From Eucommia ulmoides (Eukaryota; Streptophyta; Magnoliopsida; Garryales; Eucommiaceae), in the NCBI GenBank assembly GCA_016647705.1, contig JAENRU010000487.1, forward strand, positions 434,001-498,000: a stretch of DNA of 64,000 nt, written 5' to 3'. Below, piece by piece: positions 1,779-48,970 of the stretch. The notes below the pieces were generated by a model that did no database searches, was not told the DNA's origin, and worked only from the letters and a program-made list of their open reading frames with translations. Position numbers and translations under genes: made by a program. Within the stretch, counting starts at the first letter, position 1. Each line of letters opens with the position of its first letter.

Positions 1779-2159
1779 CTACGGTCTCCCAATAATGGCA
1801 TTATAGGCCGAGAGGTAATCCACCACCATGAACTTGATGTCCATGGTAAAAAGCTTGGGCTCAGCCCTAGCAGTGAGCAACAGTGTAATCCAGCTTAATA
1901 GCTTGGCAATCATTTCCCCAAAGCCAATTAATGGTGTCATCATCGACTTCAATTTCTTAAGCCCAATTTCAATCTTTTGGAAGGCCAGGAGATAGATAAT
2001 TTCCACCGGGCTCCCGTTGGCGATAAGGATTTGCCCGATGTTATAGTTGGTGATTTGTATAGTCACAACTAGAGTGTCATCGTGAGGGGTGTGGATTCCT
2101 CTAAGGTATTCCTCGATGCACGTGATCATTTCATGGTCGGAGATTGGGGCCTTATACAC
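1779..2159 (-). pseudogene. Gypsy aspartic protease (retropepsin) remnant
   Basis: A 126-residue open stretch carries the usual layout of plant Ty3/gypsy retropepsins: a 'DDTLVVTIQITNYNI' strand, then 'ILIANGSPVEIIY', and finally 'SAYNAIIGRP'. The family's catalytic Asp in D-(T/N)-G is missing here (ANGS), so it cannot be an active protease. The copy C counterpart is at 57466-57951 and also lacks that Asp (VNGS). Confidence 0.75.
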
Positions 2160-2353
2160 TTAGATGCATAGTCCTTGGCCTTCATTTTTTTCCTTCCGAG
2201 CATGGGATTTCTAGTTGGTCACTGAGGTTCCCCCCAAGGTAAACCCTCTATGAATAGTCCTGATTTTTCCTCGGACATCAAGCCTCTTGTTGACCTATTC
2301 TCATCAGCCTTCCTAATATCAGTTGTTGGTGAACCGTCTCAAGTAACTTCAAA

Positions 2354-2536
2354 TTAGCTCATCAACCTTATCTTTGGAACGTAGCAGTTGTCGGTGGTAT
2401 GCTTGTGCTCGATGAAAATCACATCACTTATCTGATGTATTGGCTTTTCCCTATCGTTTAAGGGTTGCGATGACTTTACCAACTTCTTACCTCTAATGTG
2501 CATTAGCGCGGGCCCTAGTAGTTCATTCAGCGACAT
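2354..2536 (-). pseudogene. Gypsy gag-pol linker fragment
   Basis: A short open stretch between gag and protease with 'LNELLGPALMHI' and 'HKHTTDNCY' signatures, as found upstream of the protease in plant Ty3/gypsy polyproteins. It is too short and broken to be functional. The homologous place in copy C is about 58080-58260. Confidence 0.5.
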
Positions 2537-2722
2537 ATAGTTTGAGTATCAAAGAGGGAATTATAGCTCCCAGTTTGCTTATTAGACTCACTTCAATCTT
2601 AGTCACTTTTTTATTTTTATTTATTTTTTATTTTTTATTTGAGAGTCGTCCCCACCTTACTTGTTGTTCATTGACTTCTCAACATTGCATTTTTCTTTTC
2701 GGTCTTCTTCTTCTTCTTTTGC

Positions 2723-3010
2723 TCAATCCTTGTAGATGTCTTCGGCTGAGATGAACTCGGTTGGCAAGGTAGGGGCCGAGGTCAGGGTTCTAGGCGGGGC
2801 TTGAGCTATTTCATAGAGAAAAGGCCCGTTATTGACTCCACTAATCAGGGCTACTATGACCATTTTGTTGTCGAGATCTTGTACTTGATTTGACTCTTTC
2901 TTAAATTTCTCCAGATAGGCATCGATACTCTCATTCTTCTTCTTCTTCTTGACAAATTGATGAACAAATATAGTGCTAAAAGATTCAAAATAATCAAATG
3001 CCCCCGACAT
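2723..3010 (-). pseudogene. Gypsy gag (retrotransposon gag domain) remnant
   Basis: About 95 residues matching the retrotrans_gag type: 'ESIDAYLEKFKKESNQV', then a short 'NKMVIVALISGV' block and 'GPFLYEIAQAPP'. Compared with copy C (58358-58750) it lacks a segment near the middle, which is replaced by a CTT/AAG run (2936-2952) encoding poly-lysine. Confidence 0.75.
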
Positions 3011-5050
3011 TAGGGTCTTGTACTACTTGGCAGTTCAACGAGTATTACCTGAAATGCCTGGCATTTGACAAAGTCGGATGCCCTGTAAAGATCCATGTCG
3101 GCATAGGATAAATCGATGTGCTTGCTACAGTAAGTTATAACGCGATAGGTACCGATCTAAGATGCAACTAAAGTTGGTCAGACGCTTTCCTTGAGCACCC
3201 GAGCAGTAAAAGGTGCCATACTCCTCTTCACAATATCTAAATGTTGGGTTTGAATCCCATCTGCACCAACTTCTCATTTATGGCGTTAACTCGATCACAA
3301 AAATCACTGTTTCCTCGTCAGTCTCTCTTCGATTTGTAAGGTCTTTCTTGGGACACCGAGGATGCTTCCACCGAGTAAGGATAGTCATCGTGTGATAGAT
3401 TGCTGGGTCAACTACCTGCTCGGGCATTCGCGAGGGTTACAATGTTGTTCGGCGCAAGACTCCTCATTTCTTAAGATTGAGCCTGAAATGGACGTTGGTT
3501 ATTTGCTCGTTCTTTAGGACTCTACTCGTTTCAGGGCGTGAGATTTGCATGCTGAAGTTGTTCAAGCTTGAGCCTCATCTTCTGTCGTTCTCTCCTTGAC
3601 GCTTCTTCCCGACAATGTTCTTGTCAGGCTCTTCAGCCTCCATTCGCAACGACATATGCCTCGCTCGCTGTAAGGAGGTACATAGCTCTCTTGCAAAGGT
3701 GGCAATTGAGTTTTCCTGGCAAATTGTTAAATACTTCGGAGATTCCTTTGTGAGATATCTTCCATCTTCCTCATGAATCCCAGAATTAATGAATGGGTTC
3801 ATTGGATGGGCTAACACCCAGATCCGCAGTATGAATTTGATGTCTCTTTATTTATTGATCACTAGTCATGATGTCGGATCGGAGAGTGACCATGAAATTT
3901 CTCAAAGTATGAGAAACAATTAATTATTTTCATAGACAATGTCAATTTGATGATACCTGAATTTGGATCGTCAGATACCTTCTTAGAAAGCATGGTCACT
4001 TGCTGGAGGGTTGTTAGATACGTTTCAAGGGATGGACATACTTTGAACACTGTGGGACTCGTATCGGAATGTTCTAGAGAATAAAAAATTTAAATTTCAA
4101 ACGGATATACACACAATGACATATTAGGGCCATGTCAGGGACACGACGGGATAGTGTACATTTTTAAAACTTATAGGGTGATAAATTTAAATAAACTAAA
4201 CGCTATATTTCTAATTTTTTAAAAAATAATTATTTCTGTTAAGCATACTATGCCTTGTCCACCAATTTTCGCCCTCCAGATTAATTTTCTGCATTTTTTT
4301 TTATATTTTCAATTTAATAGTTAAATTTCCATAATTTTTATTTTCTGGCATTTGCATGTTTTTATCTATTTATGTATTGATATTTATTATTTTTATGTAA
4401 TAATTGATTTCGAGTTTTTATTGGTTACAAATAATAATTACTTATAACATTTTAAAATATGTAAAATAAATAATAATATATTGGTGTACCCTAACCATAC
4501 CGTATCCTCATTTTTGAAATTTGCCTTATTCCCATGTCACAAACGACAAGTGTGCACATGCTTCTTAAGTAACCTACCTAAACTTGGGTTCTTGCAAAAT
4601 GATGAATTGCGGCTGGACCCACTTTCGTTGCACCTCCAGTGTAGGAATAAATAATATTTAATTATGGTAGAATTTTGGCAAAGATTTGTTTATGAATTGT
4701 GTGTATTTTAGCCAGACAGAGCCTCATGGTATTTATAATCATGGGAAAACTTGTTTAGCAAGTCTTCTTAGGAGATCAGTCAATCCACATTAATGCATGC
4801 AAGATTCGCAGGATTGAGGGGCTTATGCCCTTTAAATTGGCTATTTGATCCTCTTTCCTTATTGGGATTTGGTAGCTGCCCCGAGGTGGAGGTTAAAGCC
4901 TTCGCTGGGTGTACATGTGCTCAACTTCGATAGTACTAAAATTTAGTAGTATCGTATAGGCCCAGGATGAATTCCTGCACAAATCGATATTGTGGCCAGT
5001 ATTGTCTCATTGGGTCCGGGCAGACTCATCGGGTCTTAATGGGTTGTGCT
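3011..5050 (-). other. Non-coding 5' part of the gypsy fragment (leader or LTR)
   Basis: No credible gene is seen. The sequence is shared with 58751-60830 of copy C. A TATA-like TATAAATACC lies on the minus strand near 4730, which fits an LTR promoter. TG...CA ends and a flanking target duplication could not be defined. Confidence 0.4.
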
Positions 5051-10277: not shown

Positions 10278-10339
<62 letters not shown>

Positions 10340-10435
10340 CAAAAATATATTTACCAATTTCAAAATTCAGAAATACACGTGTCTCAAATATCCATAACAA
10401 AGCTATAAAAAAAATTGAACCTTTCACGATTCATA
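10200..10435 (-). mobile_element. Left part of an older element split by the LTR retrotransposon
   Basis: TGACGTCACATTACACCCCG and the flanking GGCCGGGCGTGACATC match, in reverse complement, the end of the repeat-bearing element near 44790-44860. The right part resumes at 16047 (TCTGACTCTACCTAGTGCC, compare the reverse complement at 44627-44650). The target duplication TCATA lies at the break. So a relative of the 43.6-44.86 kb element, in opposite orientation, was the landing site. Confidence 0.6.
10268..10338. repeat. (TA)n microsatellite
   Basis: About 70 bp of nearly pure TA. Confidence 0.95.
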
Positions 10436-10774
10436 TGTAATACCCAATTTATATTTTTGAAAATATTACTTTATAAAAAAGTCTAATGTTTTGAGACTGA
10501 TTTGCGAATTTATGGTATGAATAATATTTGATAATTTTTTAGAGTTAAATGTATATTTTTAATTGATTTTAGAAGTTTTGGAACTATTGTGCTATTTAAA
10601 ATATATTTTTAAGAGTTTTAGAGTACAATTAATATTTTTTTATTTTAAAAGGAACCTTAACGTAGATAAATAAATATATAAATAAATAATGGCCAAAATG
10701 GTTTCCTTCCTTAGGAAGGAAACCATAATGGCCACACACACACACACATATATATATAGAAAGGAAATCATAAT

Positions 10775-10842
<68 letters not shown>

Positions 10843-11701
10843 CTTTTATGCTGAATATGATCCTTCTCTTTCTCCTCCACTGTTTCGGCCACCCTCCCTA
10901 AATATATATATATTCGGATTCCGGTTTCGAATTTCAGGTAGAATTTCTAACTCTTCTAATATTTGTATTTAATCCATCTATTGAGTGATTTACATTATTA
11001 TTGTAGGTGAATTTATCGTTATTAGTTCGCATGAAATAATTATGATTATGTGAAAATTATGTGAAAATCATGTCAACCTGTTTTATTTGTCATATTAATT
11101 AAATGCCTGTATTAGAGGGGTTAGAGTTTTACTGAACGTCGGCTCACAACCTTACAGTTTTGATTGCAAGACCGGTAAGAACGAAACGACACCAAATATT
11201 ATATTAAAATTTTTGTTTGTAATAATTGTAATTAATATTTACCGTTGTAAAAATTGACTCAATAAATCGAATATAATTATTGTCGTTGTATTATAGAATT
11301 TAAATCGATAATTATTACTGTCGTTGTAATTGTATATTAAATTAAAATTTAAACTTTAGTATTAAATTGACCGGCGCCAGAAATTTATTTGAATATATTT
11401 GGAAATAATGCGGCAATAGGAATTTCAATTGAGTTTCTATTTAATCCGTAATAGTCGCATTTATTATTTACAACTACCGTGAGCGAACCGGCACGGAATT
11501 GAAAATTCGAAATAATTGTAATAGTTGTAGCTATTATTTACGGTTGTACAAGCTACCTGAAAATTCAACAAATTATAATTATCGTTGTCGCATTGTAAAA
11601 AGTCTCGCATTTTATTAACGAAATATTGGGCAATCAATTTTGGCGTTACATTCTCTAAGGGGAGAAACCGCGTAATGGCCTTGGGAAATCGGGCCTTTAC
11701 A
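10436..11701 (+). repeat. 5' LTR of the non-autonomous element
   Basis: A 1266-bp LTR. It contains the inverted repeat GTTTCCTTCCTTAGGAAGGA (from about 10700), then a CA/TA microsatellite, and conserved GTCGTTGTA-type repeats downstream. It is aligned throughout to 14741-16041. Substitutions and several indels separate the two LTRs, so the insertion is not recent. Confidence 0.85.
10728..10840. repeat. Compound (CA)n/(TA)n microsatellite in the 5' LTR
   Basis: CA runs at about 10734-10748 and 10777-10809 are each followed by TA runs. The 3' LTR has only short TA/CA runs and a duplicated hairpin at the same place, so this part is expanding independently. Confidence 0.9.
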
Positions 11702-11720: not shown

Positions 11721-12824
11721 TACGACTGCCCTGCGCTTGGGTTATGGTACCCATTATTCATAATTAATTATCCAATATTAAAAAAAAAATGATTGTTATT
11801 TCAACAAATATTTTTTGCATAATCCAATAATTCATAAAAAAAAATGCATGTTACTGTTTTAAAGTATGCATGAGGTGTAAAAAAAAATATTATATGTTTT
11901 TGGGTGGTCTAACACTTTGCACCCAGTTGTTACCATTATTCCATTTTGCTCCTTATAGTTGCAATATGCTTTATTTTGATTTTTGATGATAAAATATTAT
12001 TGCATGGTTTATAAGTTATTTTATATCGTTTTAGTGGTTAAAAAGAAATTGCAAATATATAGGAATTGGAAACAATGAAATAAAAGACTTTACTTAGGAA
12101 ATTCTATCTTTGGCCCCAAGTTATGGTATGGTTGTTTATGTGGACCTTTTGGTTAGTCCAATTGCACAGATTGGTCTCTATAGTTTTTATAGTTTCAATT
12201 TGTACATTTGGTTTCAATTTGGTTGTTTATGACCATTTTGTATTTTTAAACACTTTGGACTCTCGAAGTTTAACTAAAATCTCACATTGGTCTCTACAAT
12301 TTCAATTTAAATATATTAACATTTAGGGTGACGTTTGATTAATGTGACTTACCGATAGTAAGTAATGTGAGGTTTGGAAAACAAAAATTAATTAAGATTA
12401 CGAATGCTATGATAAATGGATTGTTATGATAAATTGCCATGATAAATTGCCTCATGGACGAACTACAATTTATTTTACTTGATGGGCCTAATAATGGATA
12501 GCCTTATTAAATTATTATGATAAATTTTCGGTAATAAATTATGTAGACTTGGGGAGTGGTAGGTTAATAATAGACCATATGATTTATTGTTGAATTGAAA
12601 ATATTGATTTAAAGGTGTGTACTGTCTTCTATATAAATCGTGAAATTATATTTTTGTATTAAATTGTGGAAAAAAAAAATAGTGCTGATGGAAATTGACC
12701 ATTTTACGATAATTAATGGATCAAGTGAAATTTTAAAGGTGAAAAATAATTTTATTATCCTACTATACCATAGTTGTCTTCTCATTAGGAGGGTCAGTCC
12801 TGCAAGATGTGGATATATGTTATT
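11721..12824 (+). other. Non-coding interior of the LTR element, 5' half
   Basis: AT-rich, with no gag, protease or RT motifs in any frame. Short open frames (for example 12123-12326) look random. Confidence 0.6.
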
Positions 12825-13028
12825 ACCTGTCAAGCAACTTCTGCAGGGTGGATATATTATATATATTATTACCTGTCCGGCATGTCCTGCAGGGTGGATA
12901 TATTATATATGTTGTTACCTGTCAGGCAAATTCTGCAGGGTGGATATATTATATATATTATTACCTGTTCGGCAAGTCCTGCAGTGTGGATATATTATAT
13001 ATGTTGTTACCTGTCAGGCAAGTTCTGC

Positions 13029-13087
<59 letters not shown>

Positions 13088-13350
13088 ACTTGTTAGGCAA
13101 GTCCTACAGGGTGGATATATTATATATGTTGTTACCTGTTGGCAAGTCCTGCAGAGTGGATATATTATAAATGTTATTACCTATCAGGCAAGTCCTGCAT
13201 GGTGGATATATTATATATGTTGTTACCTGTCAGACAAATTCTATAGGGTGGATATACTATATATATTGTTACCTATTAGGCAAGTCCTGTAGGGTGGATA
13301 TATTATATATGTTGTTACCCGTTAGGCAAGTCATACATGGTAGATATGAT
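12825..13350 (+). repeat. 46-bp hairpin minisatellite, 11 units
   Basis: The unit is ACCTGTCAGGCAAGTCCTGCAGGGTGGATATATTATATATGTTGTT-like. Starts fall at 12825, 12871, 12917, 12963, 13009, 13088, 13134, 13179, 13225, 13271 and 13317. The fifth unit has an expanded TA tract (13036-13081). Within each unit CCTGTCAGG can pair with CCTGCAGG across a CAAGT loop. The long reading frames over the array are a by-product of the 46-bp period. A related 44-bp array is at 43642-44085. Confidence 0.92.
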
Positions 13351-13398
13351 AACTCCCGATCGTGAGGTAAAATGATCCTATGACTGGCAAAGAAGTAT
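13351..13398 (+). other. Conserved GATCGT...GATC block after the minisatellite
   Basis: CCCGATCGTGAGGTAAAATG followed by ATCCTATGACTGG. Near-identical blocks sit right after the 44-bp array (44118-44160) and, inverted, at 16352-16390. GATCGT and its partner around GAGGTAAA make a small stem. The constant position beside both arrays suggests a functional or shared ancestral unit. Confidence 0.7.
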
Positions 13399-14740
13399 GC
13401 TATTTTATTATATACAAATGAATTGATCACTTGATTTAAATTTGATTGTTTTGTTACGATAATATTTTGTTGGAATTTGGATATTTCCCAATGTGGCTAT
13501 ACTTTATTGGAAAATGGATTTTGATAAAAAAAAAAAAAAATATTTAATTCATAAAATACTTTTATACTACAAAGACAGTATACTGATAAAAATAATTCGG
13601 ATAGATATTGGTCTATTACTAACGATTAGTAGAGGCAGAGTCGGAGTGTGGGATTAATAATAGCACTAGTGAGAGCCAATTGTTACATAAGAATGTTAAC
13701 TTAAACCTTTTTTAAGCTTAATTGATGTGGTAGAAATGTGATTGGGGACCTTATGTAATATTTTTGTTTATGTAGTTTACATGAGTACTAAATTATGTAT
13801 TGAACTCGATATTTAGGTGGTTTGAAATGTAATTATGTGATTTAGGATATATTTGGTTTATATAATTGACACGTGTTTATGTGTTTCAATACATATTTAT
13901 GTGGTTGAGACATGTTTATATATTTCGACATGTAGTTATGTATTTTGATATGTATTAATGTGGTTGATACGTATTTATGAGTTTCCAGATATGTTTATAT
14001 GATGGAAACGTATTTGGATATTTGGTGACATACTTATGTAGTTGGGAAGTATTTATGTGTTTTCAGACGTATTGTGAAAAAAAATTTTGTTTGAAATTTT
14101 AATTGTTTGATTTTATGAAAAAGTTTACGAGATTATTGGAAGTTTAATGTGAATATTGGAGGTAGTCATTTTTAGTCTCACGGGACAGTCTATTAGGAAT
14201 TTGGGTTATCTATTGGCTATATTATTGGTTGCGAATATGTTGGCTTGAAATGTTGGATGAAATTGGTAAATGCTGGTTATGGGATATGACAGTAGACTTG
14301 AAAAGTTATGTCAAGTGGGAAATTATTGAAGTCGTAGATTTGTTGGAATTGAGATAGACCCCAATTCAATGAGACTACCATGATATTTTAAAGATATATT
14401 GTTATTTATTGTTATTTTCATCAGAGTAGTAGTGTAGTGGAAGCGTTTAAAAACATAAGATTCTTCGGTAATTAGTTATCTGTACTAAGTGTTACCGACC
14501 AAAGTGCACCATGTCCGTATGTTGTTGGATATAACGTGGGCCATTGCGAATGAGAATGTTGCGATGAGTAGAATGAATTTTGATGGCTATGAATTATGAG
14601 TGATTTTCGGTTATGGGACCTTACATAAAGAACAATTGTTCTAGAATCGAGTGTGAGTAACATGACCATACGGTGCAATTCTAAATTATTACCGTTTTAA
14701 ACGAATTTTTTAGGACAAAATTTATTTAATCAGGGTAGAT
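13399..14740 (+). other. Non-coding interior of the LTR element, 3' half
   Basis: AT-rich. It includes loosely repeated phrases of the type TTATGTGTTT..ACATATTTATG (13800-14060). No domain is seen. Just before the 3' LTR stands AGGACAAAATTTATTTAATC, which corresponds to the end of the chromovirus coding/PPT region at 18.5 kb. The polypurine tract itself is weak (CAGGGTAGAT). Confidence 0.55.
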
Positions 14741-15144
14741 TGTAATACCCCAAAAATTTATATTTTTGAAAATATTACTTTATAGAAAAGTCTAATGTTT
14801 TGGGATTAGTTTGAGAATTTATGATATGAATAATATTTGATAATTTTTTAGAGTTAAATGTATATTTTTAATTGATTTTAAAAATTTTGGGACTATTGTA
14901 CTATTTAAAATATATTTTTAAGAGTTTTGAGATATAATTAATATTTTTTTTATTTTAAAAAGGACCTTAACGTAAATAAATAAATAATGGCCAATATAGT
15001 TTCCTTCCTAGGAAGGAAACCATAATGGCCATATATATATACACATATAATGGCCATATAGTTTCCTTCCTAGGAAGGAAACCATAATGGCCATATATAT
15101 ATATACACATATATACAGGTGGCGTTTTGCATGTGTTTATATAG

Positions 15145-15189
<45 letters not shown>

Positions 15190-16041
15190 TATGATGAATT
15201 ATAATATTAAACCTTGCGGAATAATATTTTTGAGCGAGATTAATATTTCGGTTCGGATTCCGACTTCGAATTTCAAATAGAATTTCTAACTCTTCTAATA
15301 TTTGTATTTAATCTATCTACTGAGTGATTTACGTTATTATTGTCAGTGAATTTATTGTTGTTAGTTCACATGAAATAATTATGATTATGTGAAAATTATG
15401 TGAAAATCATGTCAGTGTGTTTTATTTGTCGTATTAATTAAAAGCCTGTATTAGAGGGGTTAGAGTTCTACTGAGCGTCAGCTCACAACCCTACAGTTTT
15501 GATTACAGGGCCAGTGAGAATGAAACGGCACTAGGGATTATATCAAAATTTCTGTTTGTAATAATTGTAGTTAATATTTACCGTTGTAAAAATTGACTCA
15601 ATAAATCGAATATAATTATTGTTGTCGTATTATAGAATTTAAATTGATAATTATAATTGTCGTTGTAATTGTATATTAAATTACAAATTTAAACTTTAGT
15701 ATTAAATTGATCGGCGCCAGGAATTTATTTGAATATATTTGAAAATAATGCAGCGACATGAATTTCAGTTTAGTTTCTATTGAATTCGTAATAGTCACAT
15801 TTATTATTTACAACTACCATGAGCGAATAAGCACGGAAGTGGAAATTCGAAATAATTATAATTGTTGTAGCTATTATTTACGGTTGTACAAGCTACCTAA
15901 AAATTCAACAAATTATAATTGTCGTTGTCGCATTGTAAAAAGTCTCGCATTATATTAACGAAATATTGGGCGATCGATTTTGGCGTTACATTCTCCAAGG
16001 TGAAAAATCGCGTAATGGCCCTAGGAAATCGGGCCGTTACA
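14741..16041 (+). repeat. 3' LTR of the non-autonomous element
   Basis: A 1301-bp LTR, TGTAATACCCC...GGGCCGTTACA. The palindrome TTTCCTTCCTAGGAAGGAAA occurs twice (near 15001 and 15061), each time followed by ACCATAATGGCC. An (AAT)n run at 15147-15189 is absent from the 5' LTR. It is flanked on the right by TSD TCATA (16042-16046). Confidence 0.87.
15147..15189. repeat. (AAT)n microsatellite in the 3' LTR
   Basis: About 14 ATA/AAT units, present in this LTR only. Confidence 0.95.
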
Positions 16042-16046
16042 TCATA

Positions 16047-16784
16047 CCTATCCCGAAAATCCTCCCAAAAACACCACCACCATCTGACTCTACCTAGTGC
16101 CAGTAGTGGATTCGTCACTAGCCGAGGAACTTGAGACCAAATATTTTATCGGTGTACTGTCTTCATAATATAAAAATAATTTATGGATTAAGCATAATTG
16201 TGAAATACCATTTTTCAGAATATAATATAAAGATAATTGTATACTGAGCCAAAATAAAATTTTACAGCTATTATCACAATAAAATAAATGTATTTCAATT
16301 AAATAATTAGATTATTTTGATATATAATAAAATACCGCACACATATTTCTCTACTAGTCGTAGGATCGTTTCACCTCACGATTGAAAGTTACGATTGTAT
16401 CGTAACGGGTATAACTATGCAATCTAAGGTTACTATCAGTGTCAGGACTATTTAATAGCTCAGATGGTAGAAGCCTACACATGGTATAAACCATCATATC
16501 ATGATGATAAACATCATCAACAACAACGACAACAACAACATATATCAACCATCTGTAAGACTTACTCAGCTGTCAGGTCACAACATAACATCCTACAAGA
16601 CATACCTTCCTGTTAGGACCAATAACATCCCACAGGACATGCCCTCTTGTTGAGATCACACTATAACATAGTTGGACAATAAAATCATTTCCTACATTTA
16701 AAAATTTATTTGATCCGTATCACGTTATAAAATAATTTGTTTTAATAAACTCTTTCTTTTCACATTTGAGTACGAAAATATAAT
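16047..16784 (-). mobile_element. Right part of the older interrupted element
   Basis: Read on the minus strand, the conserved block (16352-16390) and about three worn units of the hairpin minisatellite (16560-16680, CTGTCAGG/CCTGTTAGG/CTTGTTG motifs) are recognisable. 16080-16150 matches the reverse complement of about 44570-44650 (ACTCTACCTAGTGCCAGTAG). Together with 10200-10435 it forms an inverted relative of the 43.6-44.86 kb element. Confidence 0.6.
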
Positions 16785-17090
16785 TTGACAATTTACATAG
16801 AAGACAATATACTTACTTTGATTTTTGCGCTACTAGAGCAATTGAGGTCATCTTTTCTAACAAGGAAGAATTTTGTAGAGAAGGGATACACATTCGAAGA
16901 TAAACAATCTGTTAAGATTAATGATAGAGATGTGGTAGCATATTTTTCTGGGAGTAACCCCTCATCTAGACCAAAAGATGAGATTGATGAAATTTTTGCA
17001 GAATTTGATGGGGGAGAACCTTATAAGAAAATAGTCTCAATTCCGAAAAATAATAGTAAAAAAAAGGCTTTGGTGGTATGGGTGTATTAA
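16785..17090 (+). other. Unrecognised 101-codon open frame
   Basis: An open frame with a charged C-terminal half (RPKDEIDEIFAEFDGGEPY) that looks more protein-like than its surroundings. No family is recognised. It could be an exon fragment of a host gene or a LINE ORF1 piece, because the following T/G-rich sequence resembles a LINE 3' end. No start context or splice sites argue for expression. Confidence 0.3.
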
Positions 17091-18056
17091 CAATCTTTTC
17101 TTGGCACTTGGGTTTGTGAAGTTGGCTATAATTGGGGGTTCTAGTGCTAGGTTGTGCTGTAATTGGGAACCTTCATTTGAATGATTGGTTGTGTTTGGGG
17201 TGCTTCTTTTTTGTTTTCAAAGTTAGTGAATTGTTTTTCTTGAGTCGAGCTTTATCATCTGATTATTCTCCGTTTCAAAGGTTAGTCATTGTCGGGAATG
17301 GTCTTGTTCCTTGGTTTTTTAGTTGAAGTGGCACCTTGGTCAATGGGTGAACACATGGAGCTACATCAGAATAACGTGGCAGGGTGTGCAATTCTTTAAG
17401 GGGCTGTGCCATTGAACATGGAAGGAAGGAGTTTTACTCGTGGGCATTTTGCTGGTGTTGTTTTATCGAGTTCGCTGGGTGGCCTAGAGTATTGGATTTT
17501 GGGTGTAATAGTTATTAGTGATTAGCTTCTTTGGCCATCGTAGTTGTAATGTATTTCTTGTATTTTCTGGGTGTGATTTTTCGGACTACACGATAAATTG
17601 TTATTGTGTAGTATAGCTGTGTTCTGTATTACATGTAGGTTGGGTGACTTTTCCCCTTATTAATATATTCCATCGCTTATCGAAAAATAAAATAAAATAT
17701 GCTACCATTGTAATACGGACGTGGTCGGCGTCATCTGTGAACCTAATAACTAAAGGGCTTAAACTAAAAATTTATTTAAATAAATCTAATATGCAATACA
17801 TGACCCTAAAATGCAATCTTTCCCATTCCCAATTTTTTTTTTTTTTTGATTATACGAATTTACCAAACGCCCAATTTCCACAGTACAAAATTTACTATAA
17901 TAACGACTACGAATTACTTTCTATTAATAATTTAATCAACAAGAAAATATTAATTAACCGTTAAAAATATTATTAGTCAATGTAGTATTAGAATTATCAT
18001 TTTAATAAAATTTACGATTTTTATTTTAAATTGTATTACTCACAATTTTGCTATAT
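17091..18056. other. Intergenic sequence without a recognised gene
   Basis: 17100-17640 is T/G-rich and resembles the sequence at about 31600-31970 in composition, possibly a LINE 3' part. 17640-18056 is AT-rich. Nothing firm is seen. Confidence 0.4.
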
Positions 18057-18493
18057 CTATATATAATTATACCCACTATATTTCTCGAATTCATGTATAT
18101 ATTTTTCATATATACACATGTACATGCCCGCACAAATAGTGTCATAAATTAAATGTGGTATATATTTTATTTTAGCAATATATATATATATATATGGTTT
18201 GTGTTGTTTCCTTCCTTGGGAAGGAAACAACATGGACCATATTTTCATTTATTTATTTACATTAATTATCCCTATTGAAATAAAAAAAAATTAATTATAT
18301 CACAAAATTTTTAAAAATTATATTTTAAATAACTTAATAATCCTTACACTTTTAAAAATCAAAATTAAATCAACATATTAGTCCTTAAAATTTTTGAAGT
18401 AAAATTTAAATAGCACATTGAACACCATTATTTTTTCTAAATATTCTAAAATGCAACTAAAAATATGCATGTGCAAATATTAGGCTTTACAAT
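18057..18493 (-). repeat. Partial 3' LTR of a chromovirus-type gypsy element
   Basis: On the minus strand it starts TGTAAAGCCTAATATTTGC at 18493. It shares the order of motifs of the 10436/14741 LTRs: GATATAATTAA, TAAATAAATAA, then the GTTTCCTTCCCAAGGAAGGA hairpin at about 18203-18228 and a TA run. The far end is missing. It directly follows the coding end at 18500-18770. Confidence 0.7.
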
Positions 18494-39285: not shown

Positions 39286-40080
39286 ATGCAACATGCGAAT
39301 TTCTCTGATATGAAATGTGACATTCCCGAATTGAGGGGTGATAACTATAAGGTTTGGAATGAGAGAATTCTTTTTCAATTGGGGTGGATGGACGTTAATT
39401 ATACTATAAGGAAAGACAAACCAGTCATTGCTCCGACCAGCACACCAGATAAAATTGCTCTTATGAACGTTGGGAGCGATCCAATTGCCTCAATCTGATG
39501 TTTATAAAGACCAAGATCTTTGTTGGTACTTGTGGTTTTGTCGATCAGCATAACAAGGTTAACACACTGCTGAAGGCTATTCATGAACAATTTGAGTATA
39601 TATGAATAAGGCACTTGCTAACACCCTGATTATGATGTTTTCATCCCTGAGGCTCACTACTGTGAGAGGTGTGCGTAAGCACATATGCAGATGAGGGACG
39701 TCATTTATACTCAATTGAAGGCACTTGAGGTTGAGATGTTAACTATTTTCTTGTGCATTATATTTTGAATACTCTTCCACACAAATATGAACCCTTCAAG
39801 ATATTCTACAACACACGTAAGGATAAGTGGTCAATTAATAAACTTCTGACCTTGTGTGTTTAGGAGGAAGGAAGACTATCAATGGAATTGGGAGAAAGTA
39901 CATTAATGGAAATGGAATGAAAGAATCAGAAACAAGCCAAAAATAAGGAGAAAGGTAAAATACCGCCCCAAGGTGGAATCAAGAAGGAATTCAAGTGTTT
40001 TTTTTACAAGAAGAAAAGACAGATGAAGAAATATAGCACTAAATTCCAAAAATGGCTTGAGAAGAAAGATAAATCAATCT
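39286..40080 (+). pseudogene. Copia-2 gag remnant
   Basis: Begins 'MQHANFSDMKCDIPELRGDN' followed by 'YKVWNERILFQLGWMDV', a typical copia gag start. It is broken by stops from 39496. The zinc knuckle near 39985-40035 has lost key residues: 'CFFYKKKRQMKKYS' in place of CX2CX4HX4C. Confidence 0.78.
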
Positions 40081-40119
40081 CATTTGTTTGTTATGAATCT
40101 AATATGGTTGATGTTATTT

Positions 40120-41420
40120 ATAACACATGGTGGATTAATTCTGGTTCTATAATCCATGTTTCAAATACCGTGTAGGGTATGCAAAACCTAAGGAAACCAA
40201 TGCCAAGTAAGCAATGCATTTATTCATAAAACAAGATGCGTTCACATGTGGAGGCCGTTTGAACATGCAATTTAATTTTAAGTAGTGGCTTTATTTTAAA
40301 TTTAGAAAAGACTTTTTATATCCCAAGTTTCTCTAGGAATTTGATTTCGGTTTCAAGACTTGTGCCTTTGGGTTATTTCTTTAATTTTTATGAGACATCT
40401 TTCAGTTTGTCTTGTAAATCTAATCTTGTTGAATCTAGTACATTGTCTAATGGTCTTTTCTATATTGATTTGCAAAATTATGCCACTAATAATGCTCTGC
40501 ATGTTCACGTTGGTGTAAAACGATGTGTTATGAATGAAGAATCCTCTAGTTTGTTGCACTAGAGATTGGGACATATCTCTATACAGAGAATTAAGAGATC
40601 AGTAAATGATGAAGATTTAGTAATTTAGATTTTACTGATTTTGAGGTTTGTGTGGACTACATTAAGGGAAAGCAGACCAACAAGTCGAAGAAAGGCGCGA
40701 AGAGGAGTACAAAAATGTTAGAAATCATACATTCAGATATATGTTATCCAGATATTGACATACATGGTCCGAAATATTTCATCTCTTTCATAGATGATTA
40801 CTTATGATACATGTATATCTACTTGCTTCATAATAAGGACGAAGCATTGGATGCCTTTAAGATTTTTAAGGTTGAAGTAGAGAAGCAATGCGAAAAGCAA
40901 ATTAAGATCGCGAGAACTGATAAAGGTAGATAATATAATGGTAGATATACCGAGAATAGACAAGCACTTAGTCCATTTGCAAAGTTTCTTCAAGAGCATG
41001 GGATAGTTGCCCAATACACCATGCCCGGTTCCCTAAACCAGAATGGTATAACAGAAAGAAGAAACTGAACTTTAATGGATTTGCTTAGGAGTATGCGCAG
41101 TAACTCCAAACTTTTTAAATCCTTATGGACTGAATATCTTAAAATTGCAGTGTATATATTAAACCGAGTTAAAAACCAAAGTTGTCCCAGAGATGCCATT
41201 TGAATTGTAGAAGGGTTGGAAACTGAGTTTAGGATATATGCGCGTTTGGGGATGCCCGTCTGAAGTAAGAATTTACAACCCACAAGAGAAGAAATTGGAC
41301 CAAGGACAATAAGTGGGTATTTTACTGGATATGTCAAAAGATTCAAGGGATACAGATTCTATTGTCCATCTCATAGCACTAGGATTGTGGAGTCGAGAAA
41401 CGCAAAGTTTCTTGAGAAGG
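40120..41420 (+). pseudogene. Copia-2 protease and integrase remnant
   Basis: The protease site reads 'WWINSGSIIHVS' (about 40129), with Asp changed to Asn, so catalysis is lost. Integrase blocks are visible as 'LEIIHSDIC' (about 40720), 'RTDKGR' (about 40915) and 'NGITERRN' (about 41042), with frequent stops. Confidence 0.75.
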
Positions 41421-41901
41421 ACTTACAATTTAGTTTCTTGAGAATGACTTGCTTAAGAGACAGATTGATTGTCATTCATACCCCTCAAGTCTAAACAGGT
41501 GTTAGACAACCAATTACAGAAGCTCCACAAACTGCTGATAACGATCCAGTAGATCAAGTTGTTGATGAGGAACAACAAGAAATTATTGATATACCAGTTG
41601 AACAACAAGTTCCTTAAGAAGATAATGATAAAACATTAGGAGATCTACTAAGATAAGAAAATTAGTAATATCTAGTGATTTTGTTGTGTATCTGCAAGAG
41701 TCGAACTTTAACATTGGAGCAAAAAATGATCTTGAAATGTCTTCACAGGCCATGAGTTGTAAAGAAACGAAACTATTATACGATGCTATGAAAGATGAGA
41801 TGAACCCTATGGCATTTAACTGAGTCTGGGATCTTATTAAGTTGCCTAATGGTGCAAAATCCATTGAATGTGATTAGGTCTTCAAAATAAAGAAAGACTT
41901 A

Positions 41902-42458
41902 TTGGGCAACATTGAGATATATAAAGAAAGACTTGTTGCTAAAGGATTCACTCAAAATGAAGGAATCAATTACAAGGAGACTTTTTCTCCTGTATTTAAG
42001 AAAGATTTCATTCGTATCATTCTTGCATTAGTTGCACATTTTGACTTAGAGTTGCAACAAATGGATATGAAAATGACATTTCTCAATGGAGATCTAGAGG
42101 AAGTGGTTTACATGAAACAACCAGAAGGATTTTCCTTTAGTGGTGGTGAGTATTTGGTGTGCAAGCTTAAGAAATCCATATATGTATTAAAACAAACTTC
42201 CCATCAATGGTATTTAAAGTTTTTTATGATGTTATCTCTTCCTTTAGATTTGTAGAGAACATCATGGATCAATGTATATACCAGAATGTCAGTGGGAGTA
42301 AGACTTGTTTTCTTATTTTATATCTGGATGACATTTTAATTGTAACCAATGACAAGGGATTGTTATATGAGATGAAACAATTTCTCTCTAAAAAATTTGA
42401 TATGAAGGATGTGGGTAATGCATCTTATGTTATTGGCATTAAGATACATAGAAACTGA
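41902..42458 (+). pseudogene. Copia-2 reverse transcriptase remnant
   Basis: 'ERLVAKGFTQNEGINYKETF', 'MDMKMTFLNGDLEEVVYMKQ' and 'KKSIYVLKQTSHQWY', then a frame change near 42250. The active site is 'YLDDILIVTND', a Val-to-Leu variant of YVDD. The upstream part (41760-41900) is broken by stops. Confidence 0.85.
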
Positions 42459-42587
42459 TTTCGAGGGATTTTGGGTCTGTCTCAAGAAACCTATATCAAC
42501 AAGATTTTAGAGAGATTCTGGATGAAGGATTGTTCACCAAGTATGGCTCTCGTTTTGAAGGGTGACAAGTTCAATTTAAACTAGTGC

Positions 42588-43300
42588 TTGAAGAACGATT
42601 TTGAGCGGGAACAAATAAAGAACATTCTTTATGCTTATGTGGTTGCAAGCCTAACGTGTGCTCAGGTTTGCACTAGACCTGACATTGCATTTGCTGTTGA
42701 GATGTTGGGAAGATATCAGAGTAATCCAGGTATGGACTACTGGAGAGCTGCAAAAAAAGTGATGAGATACCTTCAAGGGAACAAAGACTATGTATTTATA
42801 TGCAAATGGACTAAAAATTTGGAAGTGATTGGCTACTCTGATTCAGACTACGCTGACTGCATTGATTCGCGAAAATCAACTTTAGGATATTTTTTCATGA
42901 TAGCTGGTGGAGCTGTATCTTGGAGAAGCGCAAAGTAGACTTTGACTGCCACTTCTACTATGGAGGCTGAGTTCGTATCGTGTTTTGAAGCTACCTTGCA
43001 TGGGGTATGGATGAAGAGTTTCATTTCTAGGCTTAGAATTTTGGATTGATTTTTGGGCCACTGAGGATATATTGTGAAAATTCAACCACTGTTTTTATGG
43101 CTAAAAACAACAAAAGTGGTAGTCGAAGTAAGCACATTGACATCAAATATCTAGCCATAAGGGAACATGTTAAAGATAAGACAATGGTTATTGAACACAT
43201 TAGCACTAAATTGATAATTGCTGATCCTTTTACTAAAGACATGCCACCATTGAAATTTAAAAATCATGTACATAGGACGGGATTTGGTTCTTTTATGTGA
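42588..43300 (+). pseudogene. Copia-2 RNase H remnant
   Basis: 'CTRPDIAFAVEMLGRYQSNP', 'YSDSDYADCIDSRKSTLGYF' and 'SRSKHIDIKYLAIREHV' followed by 'ADPFTKDMPP'. It is broken by a TAG at 42936-42938 (Gln codon) and by a frame change near 43048. Confidence 0.85.
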
Positions 43301-43641
43301 TTTTTGTTGTAAGAACGAATTTTTATGAAACTTTATTTGTGATGTTTTCTCGTATTTGACTTTCTTTTATGTACACATTTATTTATTTAAGAAACATCAT
43401 TGTAGTTGGAACCTAGAATAAACATAAGGTTTATTCATTCAAGTTATATGGGCTATAATGAGAAGTAAGGTGCATTGTAATACATGGAAGATAATACTCG
43501 TTTTAGAGGACCTATAGCCATTATTCATGTATTTCGTTTCTTACAGTGGTCAATGATGGAATATTTATGGACCAAGTGGGAGAATGTTAGATTTTTTTCC
43601 CTAAAAACCCTCAAGAACATGGGCCACATCCCTCCATCATT
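43301..43641 (+). other. Copia-2 3' end passing into repeat-bearing element
   Basis: The untranslated sequence ends at 43575-43590 with AAGTGGGAGAATGTTAG. A new element then seems to begin within the next 50 bp. The junction could not be resolved. Confidence 0.5.
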
Positions 43642-44085
43642 ACCTGTCCGGAGGATTAGTCCGGCAGGTGGTTGTTGACATTATGACCTGTCAGAAATGT
43701 CAGTTCTGCAGGTGGTTGATTATATTATGACCTGTCCGGAGGATTAGTCCGGCAGGTGGTTATGGATATTATGACCTATCCGAAAGATTAGTCTGGTAGG
43801 TGGTTATAGATATTATGACCTGTCCGGAAGATTAGTCCGGCAGGTGGTTGTTGACATTATGACCTGTCAAAAATGACAGTCCTATAGGTGGTTGATTATA
43901 TTATGACTTGACCAGAGGGTTAATCTGGTAGGTGGTTGTTTATATTACGACTTGTCCGGAGGGTTAGTCCGACAGGTGATTATTTATATTATAACCTGTC
44001 CGAAGAATTAGTCCGACAGGTGGTTGCTGATATTATGACATGTCAGGAGGATTAGTCCTGCAGGTGGTTGATTGACCCATCAGGA
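43642..44085 (+). repeat. 44-bp hairpin minisatellite, 10 units
   Basis: The unit is ACCTGTCCGGAGGATTAGTCCGGCAGGTGGTTGTTGATATTATG-like, starting at 43642, 43686, 43730 and every 44 bp after. Each unit has dyad symmetry, ACCTG(T)CCGG...CCGGCAGGT. In other units the inner stem reads CAGG...CCTG or CCAG...CTGG, and in one the outer stem reads ACCTA...TAGGT. A shortened variant follows to 44107. It shares its design with the 46-bp array at 12825-13350. Confidence 0.92.
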
Positions 44086-44117
44086 GTGCAAAACCTGCGG
44101 GTGGTGCGATACCGTTG

Positions 44118-44160
44118 CAACTCTCGATCGTGAGGTAAAAACGATCCTATGGCTAGTAGG
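44118..44160 (+). other. Conserved GATCGT...ACGATC block after the 44-bp array
   Basis: CTCTCGATCGTGAGGTAAAA followed by ACGATCCTATGGCTAG. The stem GATCGT/ACGATC is perfect here. It corresponds to 13351-13398 and, inverted, to 16352-16390. Confidence 0.75.
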
Positions 44161-44860
44161 AGAGGAGGTGTGGTGTATTTCATTATACATTAAAAGATTT
44201 CGTTTGGTTTGTTTAAAATATTTGGATTGGTAGATTTTAAAAGATTTCAATTGGTGGATTTAAAATGCTTGGGTGTGGTTTATTTAAAATGCTTGAAGGG
44301 GTTGACTTAAAATATTTGAGCTGGAGATTAATTATGTTTCCTCATTTCATTAGTGGTAGTGAAACTGGATTTTCAATATAGTATGTAGTTATATCATTAT
44401 ATTTGGAATTGTGGCGTTTAACACTTCTGCATGTTTTAAATAAATTAACTCATTACATTGGTGACAGTAAGACTGAATTTTTAACCTGGTATGTAATTAT
44501 AAAATATTATATTATTGGAAGTTGGTATTTAACAATTGTACTTGATCTATTAAGTCTTTTATTATAAAGACAATACACCGATAAAAGATTTTTGGTTTTA
44601 GGAACCGCAGCTAGGAGTTGGTCCACTACTGGCACTAGGTAGAGTCTGGTGGTAGTGTCATTTTAGAGGTGAGCCGGTCGGATGTGAAAGGTGGAAGGTT
44701 CAGGAACATTTGGAAAAAAAAATAACATTTACAGTAGTGCGTGTATTTATGTGTATCTGTATGTATTAATTGATTTGGGCGGGTAGCATCATGTCGACGT
44801 CACACCCTTCCTCAAGTGACAGGTACCCGGGGTAGAGTGTGACATGTCGTTTATTCTTCG
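44161..44860 (+). mobile_element. 3' part of the repeat-bearing element
   Basis: Homologous, in reverse complement, to 16047-16350 and to 10200-10260. CACTACTGGCACTAGGTAGA and the end with ACCCGGGGTAGAGTGTGACA mark it. No coding potential. The right end is near 44860, where CGTC-rich sequence starts. Confidence 0.55.
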
Positions 44861-45135
44861 AGTCTTCGTCATTTATTCTTTGAGTCTTCGCCGTCAATGT
44901 CGTCGTTGCCTTCGTTGTTCACCGTCGCCGTTTATTCTTTGAGTTTTTGCCTTTTCTGTTCGTCGTCTCCATTTGTTCTTCGAGTCTTCGTCGTCGCTGT
45001 CACCGTCACCTTCTCTGTTGTTATCGTTGTTTAATCTTTGATTCTTCGCCACCTTTTCTGTTCGCCATCGTCATTTATTCTTCGAGTCTTCACCATAGCT
45101 ATTCGTCGTTCAAAGAATTCCATAGTCGTAGCCCT
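44861..45135 (+). repeat. CTTCG/CGTCG-rich imperfect repeat, inverted at 48690-48970
   Basis: Repeated phrases TTTATTCTTCGAGTCTTCGCC and CGTCGCTGTCACCGTCACC occur here. In reverse complement they occur in 48690-48970, as GGCGAAGACTCGAAGAATAA and GGTGACGGCGACGGTGACAG. The two could be subterminal regions of one element or two copies in opposite orientation. Reading frames here are Ser/Leu/Arg low-complexity. Confidence 0.6.
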
Positions 45136-45295
45136 AAAAAGGTTCACAATTCCATTGATGCAGCTAGCGTTTCATTTAAAAATAGTGTTTATTATATATT
45201 TGTCCCATATTTAATTTTAGTTTCAATTTATTTATTTATTTTTTTTCATTTTTATCCCTTAACTTCTAATCAAATCCAAAACATTGTCTGAACTA
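45136..45295. other. AT-rich spacer
   Basis: Nothing recognised. Confidence 0.4.
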
Positions 45296-46460
45296 AAAAC
45301 AAATTGTGTGTGTTGAATGTAACACTCAATTCAAGCATAAGAGATAACTTCTCATCATGTTCAAATTTGATAAAATCAACCAAATAAGAAACAAGAAGGT
45401 GTCAATGCTCACAAACAATATACGTGTTGAATGTAACACTGTCTAATCTTGCCAAATATTCAAAAATAATATGCGTCTTGAATGTAACATTATCTATTAT
45501 TCTCAAAATTCATTTTTAGAATGTTGTTGAATGAAATCTGATTGAACCAATTTGTTTCAGAATAAATATCAACATGCATGCGGAATGTAAAAACATCGTC
45601 TAAACTAAACATAGGAGATAATGAACTATCAATCCAACACATATAAGATATCTTCTCATCAATCCAAAATACTTTTATCCAACTAATTCAACCAAAATTA
45701 AATTCTCATCATGCTAAAAATTGATGAATCCAAACAAACTGTGCGTGTTGATGTGTAACACTTAATCCAAACACCATAAAAACAGCTCATACTGAAAACG
45801 ATCAAACCACAACCAATACATTGAATGTAACACTGTCTAATATTGTCAAAATTCAAATTTCAAATTGCATGTTGAATGTGATATTGTCTAATCTTGCGAA
45901 GATACAGAAACAACATGCGTATTGAATGTAACATTATCTAATATTCTCAAAAAATCAGTTTAGAATTCATCAATTGACCCCACCCCCCCCCACCCCCAAT
46001 TGTTTTTAGTGTGTGTGTGTGTTGAATGTAACATTTCCTAATATAGCCAAAATTTAAAATTCAAAGTGGGTGTTGAATGTAACACTGTCTAATCGGGTTG
46101 AATGTAACATTGTCTAATGTTCTCAAAAATCAATTTTTAGAATTCAACAATCGAACCCTATTGTTTTCAGTGTGTGTTGAATGTAACACTTTCTAATATT
46201 GTCAAAATTCAAAGTGCGTGTTGAATGTAACAATTCCTAATATTGCCAAAATTCAAAATGGGTGTTAAATGTAACACTGTCTAACCGTGTTGAATATAAC
46301 ATTGTCTAATATTGTCAAAATCAATTTTTAAAATTCAACAATTGAACCCCATTATTTTCAATGTGTGTGTTGAATGTAACACTTTCTAATATTGTCAAAA
46401 TTCAAAATTCAAAGTGCGTATTGAATATAACACTGTCTAATTTTGCCAGATATTCAAAAA
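45296..46460. repeat. Array of imperfect TTGAATGTAACACTGTCTAA repeats
   Basis: At least a dozen irregularly spaced copies of GTTGAATGTAACACTGTCTAA are followed by TATTGCCAAAATTCAAA. There is a longer sub-unit including CAATTTTTAGAATTCAACAA. Spacing varies from about 50 to 110 bp, so it is a higher-order, shuffled minisatellite. A short GT run and a C-run (45983-45996) interrupt it. Confidence 0.85.
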
Positions 46461-47978
46461 CAACATATTCTCCAAAACTGAAGACATCATCAAGCACAAA
46501 ATGATCAAACATATATCCCAAAATAGTAAAAAATGATCGATAAAATATGATTACCAGAACTTCAAATCCGTAGCACATAAAAAATCACCGATCAATCACC
46601 TTTGCACCATCATCGTAAGCTAATCGTAGACCTTCAACCCTTGCCCTTCGATTCGTTGCTGACCTCTTTGAACCATTGTCATAAGGGGAGGATAAAAATC
46701 TAGCAACCACCAAAACTGTCTGTCCAATTTAGACAAATCGAAGAAATTCAATTTCGTGTGAGATTATGAAATCGAACAAATTCATTTTGAATGTGACATT
46801 GTCTCAAAAACTGCATACAAATTCATGTGAGATTATGAAAAACTGCATACAAAATCAATTTTAAACTCAACCAAAATCCACACGAAATAAAGTTCAAAGA
46901 TAAGGAAAAAAAAATGTGAAAACATAGCTTCACATAAAAAAATCTAGGGCTTTGGAGTAGAACAGAAATTGAAATAGTTCAAGAATAAAAAACGAAGTAA
47001 TTTGACATTTGGAGTAGAACAGAAACTGAAATAATTTCATCAATGATTTCATCCCTAAAACCCTAAAAATAAATATCTGCAACAATGAAAAAAAAATCGA
47101 AATCAAAAAATCGTAATCGAGAAAGAAAGAAAGAGAGAGCTTACACATGGCTGTCAGACGACGACGACGATGGTGGTAGAGATGACAACGATTGCGACGG
47201 CTAATGGCGAAGTGAAGATGACAACAATGGTGATGTCTGATGGCGAAGTGAAAACGACGAAGATGAAGAAGACGACACTTGCTGCAAACAACGAGGAGTT
47301 GGTGGGGACGACGAGAAGATTGGACGACGGCGATGGAGGTGGAGACGATTATGGCAGTGGAGAAGAGAAATAGTAGTAGAGGAGTGACGATGAAGAAACA
47401 CAAGTGAATTTGGGTTAAAACATATTAGGGGTAAATTGGTAATCTGACATTTGAGATTTTTTAAAAATGGGACTAATCAGTTCAAAAAATGATTAGGATG
47501 AGAGTTTTTTATTCAATTTTTAACTAATTGGCATTTATTGATAAATGGAAAGGGAAAACAATAGTTATAGGTAATTTTCTCAACCAAAAAAAAAAAAAAA
47601 AACAGCTCCTCCTTTCTCTCAGTGATGGCGAACCAACCAACCACCATCTCCCTCACCACTCAAATCTACCATCTCCTTCACCGTCAACCGTCAAACCAAC
47701 CAACCACTATCGCCGCTCTAATGGTGAACTACCACTACTGCCGCTCATACTAGCTCTCTCTCTATATATAGATATATGTATGTTTCTCTCTCCCATCTCT
47801 TCTCTCTCTACTCTCTCTCTCTCTCTCTTTCTTAACTTATTCATGGAGGTCATGAATTTGGGTTTCTAAAACCTAATCAAATCCTTTTGCAAAAGTTGAG
47901 AGATATACATATATAAAAATGAGCAGTAATAGATCATCGTCTTCCGTTTGACAGTGAATACGAACAATGAACCCATGT
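46461..47978. other. Repeat-derived sequence without recognised gene
   Basis: 47150-47400 is GACGAC/GATGG-rich and resembles the CGTC-rich segments near 45.0 and 48.8 kb. 47580-47870 is CT-rich with CTCTCTCT runs. The open frames (46930-47403 minus, 47170-47373 and 47528-47869 plus) are low-complexity. Confidence 0.45.
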
Positions 47979-48438
47979 TTTTTGTAACATACCAACCATT
48001 TCTTAAATGTGGCCATGCATGGTTACTCTCTCTCTAACCGTGCATGACCACTCTCTCTCTTTAATGGATGTTCATGTATGATTATCCTTATTTTATGGAA
48101 TTCAAGCGTAATGACCACATTTCGTGGCCTACCATGTTAGAACATGGATCCATGCAACCCATAACTTAGAGAGAAGTGGGTATGTGCAAGTGGGAAGTGG
48201 GTATGGGCAATAGAATGTGGGTTCTTGGTGGTTAGCATTTGGAGGAAGTTAATCCACCTTCCTATATCTCTCTCTCCTTTTTATTCTTCCTCTTCTAGTG
48301 TTTTGTGAAGCATAATGAAATGATATATATATATATATATATGAATGAGATTTGTGGGTGAGTTTGATCCCCCAAGCTTGCCACGTTTTTCTTTGTGTGT
48401 GTGTGTGTGTGTGTGTGTTTTTTTTTATCCATGTGTGT

Positions 48439-48480
<42 letters not shown>

Positions 48481-48683
48481 TATTTTCTCAAATTACATTA
48501 ATCCCCCTAATTTATCTTTAAATTATGATTTAACCCAAATCTAGAATTAATATTCTTAAAATTATGAATTTACCCCTAAAATTTTCAAAATCAATATCAT
48601 TTAACACAATTTACTCCGTTATTTTCTAAATGTTCTAAAATGTGACTAAAATTTATGCGTATGTAATAATTAGGGTCTTTACA
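47979..48683 (-). repeat. Probable solo or partial LTR (TGTAAAGACCC type)
   Basis: On the minus strand it begins TGTAAAGACCCTAATTATTA at 48683, like the LTR at 18493 (TGTAAAGCCTAATATTTGC). It continues with comparable AT-rich sequence and a TA/CA microsatellite zone. The proposed far end (TGTAACATACC on the plus strand, 47979) is a guess. Flanking TSDs do not match. Confidence 0.45.
48320..48482. repeat. (TA)n, (GT)n, (CA)n, (AT)n microsatellite cluster
   Basis: TA at 48322-48341, GT at 48395-48418, CA at 48439-48462 and AT at 48463-48481. The GT and CA tracts, 20 bp apart, are mutually complementary and can form a hairpin. Confidence 0.93.
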
Positions 48684-48689
48684 CGGCAA

Positions 48690-48970
48690 TAGTGAACAGA
48701 GAAGGCGAAGACTTGACGAATAAATGACGATATGAACAGAGAAGGCGAAGACTCGAAGAATAAACGCTGACGGCAAACAGAGAAGGTGATAGAGACAGCG
48801 ACGACGAAGACGAAAGGTGACGGCGACGGTGACAGTGAATACGAACAATGAAGGCGAAGTCAATCGGTGACAGCGAATAGGACGGTGAAGATAGGTGAAC
48901 AGGACGGCGAAACAGGACAGTGGGATATGGAATTTGGCGTGAATTATAAATGAGGGGTATTTTCCTCAAG
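48690..48970 (-). repeat. GGCGAAGACTC/GACGGCGAC-rich imperfect repeat
   Basis: Inverted counterpart of 44861-45135. It directly abuts the LTR-like sequence ending at 48683. Confidence 0.6.

Follow-up and report, generated by a model that had tools for sequence, protein, structure and literature searches.

The window, a 64,000-nucleotide stretch of the Eucommia ulmoides genome (contig JAENRU010000487.1, positions 434,001 to 498,000), holds two tandem arrays of hairpin-bearing units, A and B, set among retrotransposon sequences. The features are as follows:

10436..11701, plus strand: 5' LTR of an F2 element, with TCATA at 10431-10435
12825..13350, plus strand: array B, 46-bp units of F2 type with the same arms as array A, interrupted by an AT run at 13036-13081
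14741..16041, plus strand: 3' LTR of the F2 element, with TCATA at 16042-16046
16042..18491, minus strand: older F1-like LTR (solo LTR or remnant), continuing at about 10312-10435, with about three degenerate units recognised by eye
39300..43641, plus strand: decayed Ty1/copia element with RVT_2 pieces, not part of the array family
43585, plus strand: probable start, judged from sequence, of the copia 3' LTR, which is cut about 57 bp further on
43636..44844, plus strand: 3' portion of an F1 (Ty3/gypsy) LTR that starts within the array and runs to the ...TGTGACA end, equivalent to about 1870-3095 of the 3095-bp LTR on contig C1
43642..44081, plus strand: array A, ten 44-bp units
44126..44146, plus strand: short inverted repeat GATCGT...ACGATC just 3' of array A, recognisable in F1 copies, in F2 and in the older LTR

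TRF, run on the window, places array A at 43642-44075 with a period of 44 and 9.8 copies. Each unit comprises a 10-bp imperfect inverted repeat (5 + 5 pairs) with one bulged T and a 7-nt loop, followed by a 16-bp spacer. With ACCTG-T-CCGGA / TCCGG-CAGGT as the reference stem, and either Watson-Crick or G-T counted as paired, 92 of the 100 unit-by-pair cells are paired, individual units forming 7 to 10 of their 10 pairs. RNA folds return the exact reference hairpin in five of the ten units (1, 2, 3, 5 and 7), a register-shifted hairpin in units 4, 8 and 9, a hairpin with a mismatch in unit 10, and a different fold in unit 6. The z-scores of these folds range from -2.55 to -0.03; six of the units are matched in fold stability by no more than 13 of 200 dinucleotide shuffles, the counts for the others being 33 (unit 4), 59 (unit 6), 21 (unit 7) and 89 (unit 10). 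The stem variants named in the earlier note (CAGG/CCTG, CCAG/CTGG and ACCTA/TAGGT) are all found among these units, and the hairpin is real, but the description of all ten units as dyad-symmetric was slightly generous, given these folds. Searching 43300-44900 against Rfam 15 at the gathering score gave no match, and the tail motifs matched neither viral nor prokaryote contigs (0 in each). A Helitron 3' end (hairpin plus CTAG) was rejected as an identity for the arrays, as the homology of A, B and C extends beyond such an end.

Upstream, array A abuts the copia element, in which Pfam recognises RVT_2 in two and SH3_retrovirus in one of the seven open pieces scanned. The copia 3' end has 39 other scored places (from 204 first-look candidates), 31 of which reach within two bases of the array start. 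We considered the copia LTR as the home of the array and rejected it: all seven copia copies fetched continue differently and hold no array unit. Homology to F1 runs, in the best plus-strand matches, from 43636 to near 44845, the window copy aligning to positions 1870-3095 of the C1 LTR as two pieces, and the sequence upstream of array A is common to none of the other sequences compared. Given the seven array-free copia copies, and F1 homology that starts at 43636, the junction at the array start brings together a truncated copia LTR and an F1 LTR that lacks everything before a point inside its array. The two would have come to lie side by side through rearrangement.

F1 itself was delineated in the window's own genome (947 Mb in 391 contigs), where a search with array A gave 1822 first-look candidates; 40 of these were scored and all matched, on 18 contigs, the window's own included. 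Among the 40 scored places are four same-strand array pairs with a spacing of 6.7-7.6 kb, and self-comparison shows the arrays to lie inside direct repeats in all four paired regions (alignments of 1.7-3.2 kb). On C1 the repeat starts with TGTAAGACCC and ends with GGGGTGTGACA, making an LTR of 3095 bp, and in three of the four regions (C1, C16 and C6) TGTGACA or TGTAACA closes the 5' repeat, next to a TGGTATCAGAGC-like primer site, which we take to be that of tRNA-iMet. Three of five ORF pieces chosen from these three regions match the gypsy domains RVT_1, RT_RNaseH_2, RVP_2 and Integrase_H2C2, the matches coming from the C1 and C16 pieces; these four were the only domains recognised in the five. 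Because it lies inside direct repeats that flank gypsy coding pieces, array A belongs to the F1 LTR, a long one whose middle it occupies, and F1 is a high-copy Ty3/gypsy family. In a comparison with 30 loci and three longer regions (33 sequences in all, though two of the regions include a locus already counted among the 30), every sequence covers the array of the C1 LTR, 30-31 cover positions 2701-2850 and 14-19 the last 200 bp. The earlier note had speculated on a non-autonomous retroelement; the retroelement setting holds, but as the host family of array A has gypsy coding pieces, "non-autonomous" could fit F2 only. Position 44838 was rejected as the start of a 3' LTR, being the LTR end in other copies. 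Near LTR position 340 lies a TATA-like motif, a matter of sequence resemblance.

Array B sits within the internal region of an element of F2, a second LTR family in which the pieces scanned gave no recognisable coding sequence; the element has a TCATA target duplication and is inserted into the older F1-like LTR on the minus strand. Searching the genome with array B gave 40 scored places that matched, out of 1882 candidates and with the window's own included. Two further regions were fetched, one with the same layout and both LTRs (L061) and one matching the array and the downstream part (L060). Arrays A and B share their core arms and a homologous tail, which bears out the remark in the earlier note that the 46-bp array has the same design, and their common design is therefore one of common descent. 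F1 LTRs and the internal region of F2 have in common a block of about 1 kb comprising array and tail (12600-13640 in the window, 1612-2760 in the F1 LTR); the homology is patchy, with islands of 78-89% identity, 0.73 over the aligned part before the array and 0.59, with many gaps, over the tail.

How does this compare with known systems? Tat-lineage Ty3/gypsy elements reportedly carry tandem repeats between pol and the 3' LTR, as Macas et al. are said to have described in 2009. Ogre and Retand are Tat elements with repeats in that position (PMC7004042, PMC11963269). F1 is like Ogre and Retand in that a plant gypsy element spreads family-specific short tandem arrays of variable unit number; it is unlike them in that the F1 array lies inside the LTR and hence occurs at each end of the element, and in that F1 looks, by its LTR ends, Tekay/Del-like rather than Tat. 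Neither array occupies the Tat position: array A is in an LTR, and array B is in an F2 internal region where 7 of the 12 stop-to-stop pieces of at least 60 aa were scanned without a Pfam match, the scan leaving aside three pieces in the array and two reaching into an LTR. The hop element SaazCRM1 has a tandem repeat embedded in its LTR (PMC12371157), and F1 resembles it in that the repeat is part of a gypsy LTR; the hop repeat is a centromeric one in a CRM element, in contrast to the F1 scored places, which are spread over 18 contigs. As for lineage, F1 resembles Tekay/Del by its LTR ends, with a TGTAA.ACCC start on C1, and TG...CA ends together with a primer-site-like sequence on C1, C16 and C6. 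The Del U3 end is TGTAACACCC, close to the TGTAAGACCC start on C1; unlike what we see in F1, that paper mentions none of "tandem", "palindrom", "hairpin" or "minisatellite" (PMC4029996). We recognised no description of hairpins or compensatory changes in plant LTR tandem repeats in the searched literature, itself available in part. The F1 array is an LTR-embedded tandem repeat of a Ty3/gypsy element, at the same position in many dispersed copies.

Do the paired changes in the stem reflect selection on a hairpin, as the earlier note had proposed? From 30 loci and 4 further LTR copies we gathered 370 F1 unit hits, keeping the 322 with a complete 28-bp core and dropping 48; these come from 34 arrays, several of which are the LTR pairs of one element, and sample the loci closest to the query, 40 having been scored among 1822 candidates. 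Nine of the ten stem pairs show no excess: together they have 30 paired double changes against 33.0 expected, and in each the pairing lies within 0.015 of the product of the column frequencies (observed against product, 0.832 and 0.828 at 5-24, 0.795 and 0.800 at 7-23, 0.845 and 0.850 at 9-21, 0.879 and 0.883 at 10-20). The exception is pair 8-22, with 65 paired double changes against 17.2 expected (Fisher p 1.6e-18). In 60 simulations under a tree-aware null the value for 8-22 was never reached, and that for each other F1 pair was reached in 10 to 60; overall pairing was 0.883, against a null mean of 0.822 (sd 0.043) and a null maximum of 0.891. Among the 115 F2 units with a full core (of 169 hits; 18 arrays), overall pairing is 0.868 and eight of nine pairs are near independence; pair 7-19 has a mild excess (0.826 against 0.759) with an uncorrected Fisher p of 0.0008, and 10 of its 18 T-A units are the last of their own array, an edge type. 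Covariation is therefore confined to one of ten pairs in F1 and, mildly, one of nine in F2, rather than extending to several. The earlier note had said that covariation no higher than shared ancestry predicts, or free loss of pairing, would refute it; the outcome of the check it called for, with 8-22 alone beyond the tree-aware null, comes close to that.

Pair 8-22 deserves a closer look. It is C-G in the amplified core type (241 units in 34 arrays) and A-T in the older unit types, found mostly at array edges. One A-T type has 33 units from 25 arrays, last in 21 cases, inner in 9 and first in 3; a second has 15 from 10 arrays, always inner; the 11 units of a third, from 11 arrays, always come first, and the 6 of a fourth, from 6 arrays, always last. 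The remaining 16 F1 units fall into 11 small clusters. Most A-T units thus open or close their array or occupy an inner place, which is often the fourth. In the F2 outgroup the matching pair is A-T in 110 of 115 units. Intermediates are rare, with five C-T and two A-G among the 322 F1 units, and neither forms one of the five larger unit types. A tree on all columns, whose midpoint root makes it uninformative as to direction, has one direct change between C-G and A-T and a few via intermediates; on a poorly resolved tree of non-stem columns the 8-22 class changes 27 times, against at least 63 with shuffled labels (three labels, with 12 units "other"). Most simply, A-T would be the old state and C-G would stem from one founder, although several events are possible because of those 27 changes. 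As 8-22 separates A-T edge types from the C-G core, its covariation looks largely inherited.

A further possibility is that the unit hairpin is selected as an RNA or DNA structure in the active element, for dimerisation, packaging, splicing or silencing, whilst dead copies merely decay. In its favour, pair 8-22 stayed paired through a double transversion, with 7-19 in F2 behaving similarly; the arms are common to F1 and F2 majority units; and the C-A at 7-23, which we count as unpaired, can be accommodated by shifting the register so that T6 pairs with A23 (as in folds of window units 8 and 9). Real F1 cores also have lower folding energies than shuffles, whether columns are shuffled freely (z -2.29) or arms and loop as blocks (z -4.21), with 0 of 60 shuffles as low in both cases. 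Yet this register-free test leaves no residual stability once columns 8 and 22 are linked (z +0.94), and the advantage is equally gone when 3' ends are swapped among A-T units and, separately, among all others (z -0.20). A common subtype, with A3 opposite G26 or A26, goes uncompensated in 77 of the 322 units, and two of the five F1 unit types carry C-A at 7-23; 237 of the 377 unpaired cells in F1 are A-C or C-A. Compensatory selection on the unit hairpin is not supported, and we regard structural selection in the active element as very unlikely. Could the paired changes have arisen without selection, by strand-templated repair or template switching between the arms? Inverted repeats are prone to both, and one such step could turn A-T into C-G at 8-22; if this were common, paired changes would be expected at all pairs, and nine of them together show no excess; we hold it to be highly improbable.

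Conservation tells a similar story. In neither family are the stems conserved above loop or spacer, with mean majority frequencies for stem, loop and bulge, and spacer of 0.873, 0.872 and 0.903 in F1 and 0.874, 0.928 and 0.933 in F2. Between the 5' and 3' LTRs of three elements, divergence in the array (0.123, 0.140 and 0.099) is similar to that in the rest (0.109, 0.106 and 0.092) and consists mostly of transitions, so inserted copies decay in the array as elsewhere. Across families, the majority arms of the F1 A-T types and of F2 are nearly identical and the loops and spacers differ, which suggests, as far as sequence comparison goes, long-term constraint on the arm sequence. Since these arms are alike, 8-22 has kept its pairing and the C-A at 7-23 is absorbable, active elements may be under weak constraint on the arms.

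Such likeness could instead point to arms that are protein-binding or otherwise cis-regulatory, symmetric for a dimeric protein, with the array acting as a repeated enhancer or intronic LTR element. The arms shared by F1 (A-T type) and F2 between differing loops and spacers would fit, as would the position of the array between splice-like donor and acceptor motifs; but both arms were altered at 8-22 in the dominant F1 core type, stems within a family are not more conserved than the spacer, and the columns next to the splice-like dinucleotides are conserved at least as well. We think this unlikely. The splice-like signals bracket the F1 array block: TTTTTGCAG and the donor-like GAG/GTGAGT lie before the array at about 1594-1610 of the C1 LTR, and acceptor-like TTTTGGTTTCAG/G (TTTCAG/G) after the tail at about 2760, with an acceptor-like AG at 44600-44601 in the window. 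Among aligned copies, 23 of 29 retain the donor-like GT and 21 of 28 the acceptor-like AG, a conservation no higher than that of neighbouring columns. One could posit, as a distinctly unlikely version, that the array is a repeated cis element in an intron of a transcribed LTR leader, its dyad arms kept for their sequence; as the homologous block with its arms recurs in the F2 internal region, the two families could then share a splicing or RNA-handling module.

We therefore return to the reading that, given a hairpin shape that is real and almost no sign of selected pairing, array A is very probably an ordinary minisatellite embedded in the LTR of the high-copy family F1. Its founder unit would already have held an imperfect inverted repeat, and tandem copies of that unit would have followed, with slippage, unequal exchange or reverse-transcriptase jumps as the probable means. 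One derived unit type, with C-G at 8-22, would have been amplified into the core, the edges and a few inner units keeping the older A-T, such that the strongest "compensatory" pair would be a product of inheritance, visible in the unit types and presumably of single origin. After insertion, copies would decay mainly by transitions, as they do in the three elements compared and as methylated cytosines, the likely cause, would lead one to expect. In a G-C-rich inverted repeat, transitions would yield G-T, A-C and occasional A-T pairs at chance frequency, which would account for the other paired changes. Two results sit uneasily with inheritance alone: the double transversion at 8-22 kept its pairing, beyond the tree-aware null, and real cores fold better than shuffles when 8-22 is left unlinked. 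The array offers a worked case in which inherited unit types, together with transition-biased decay, can give a tandem inverted repeat striking paired changes with no clear structural selection, and the LTR block common to two retrotransposon families provides a setting for testing whether the block has a role.

Two minor observations concern the window. At 43686-43693 and in other A-T type units the 5' arm contains ACCTGTCA, the complement of TGACAGGT, which we take to be a KNOX/BELL homeodomain site; a literature search on this site returned no matching paper, and the site is absent from the C-G core unit type. Directly after the F1 LTR end, the stretch 44846-48940 has inverted similar ends (44984-45094 with 48811-48704), which suggests a DNA-transposon-like insertion.
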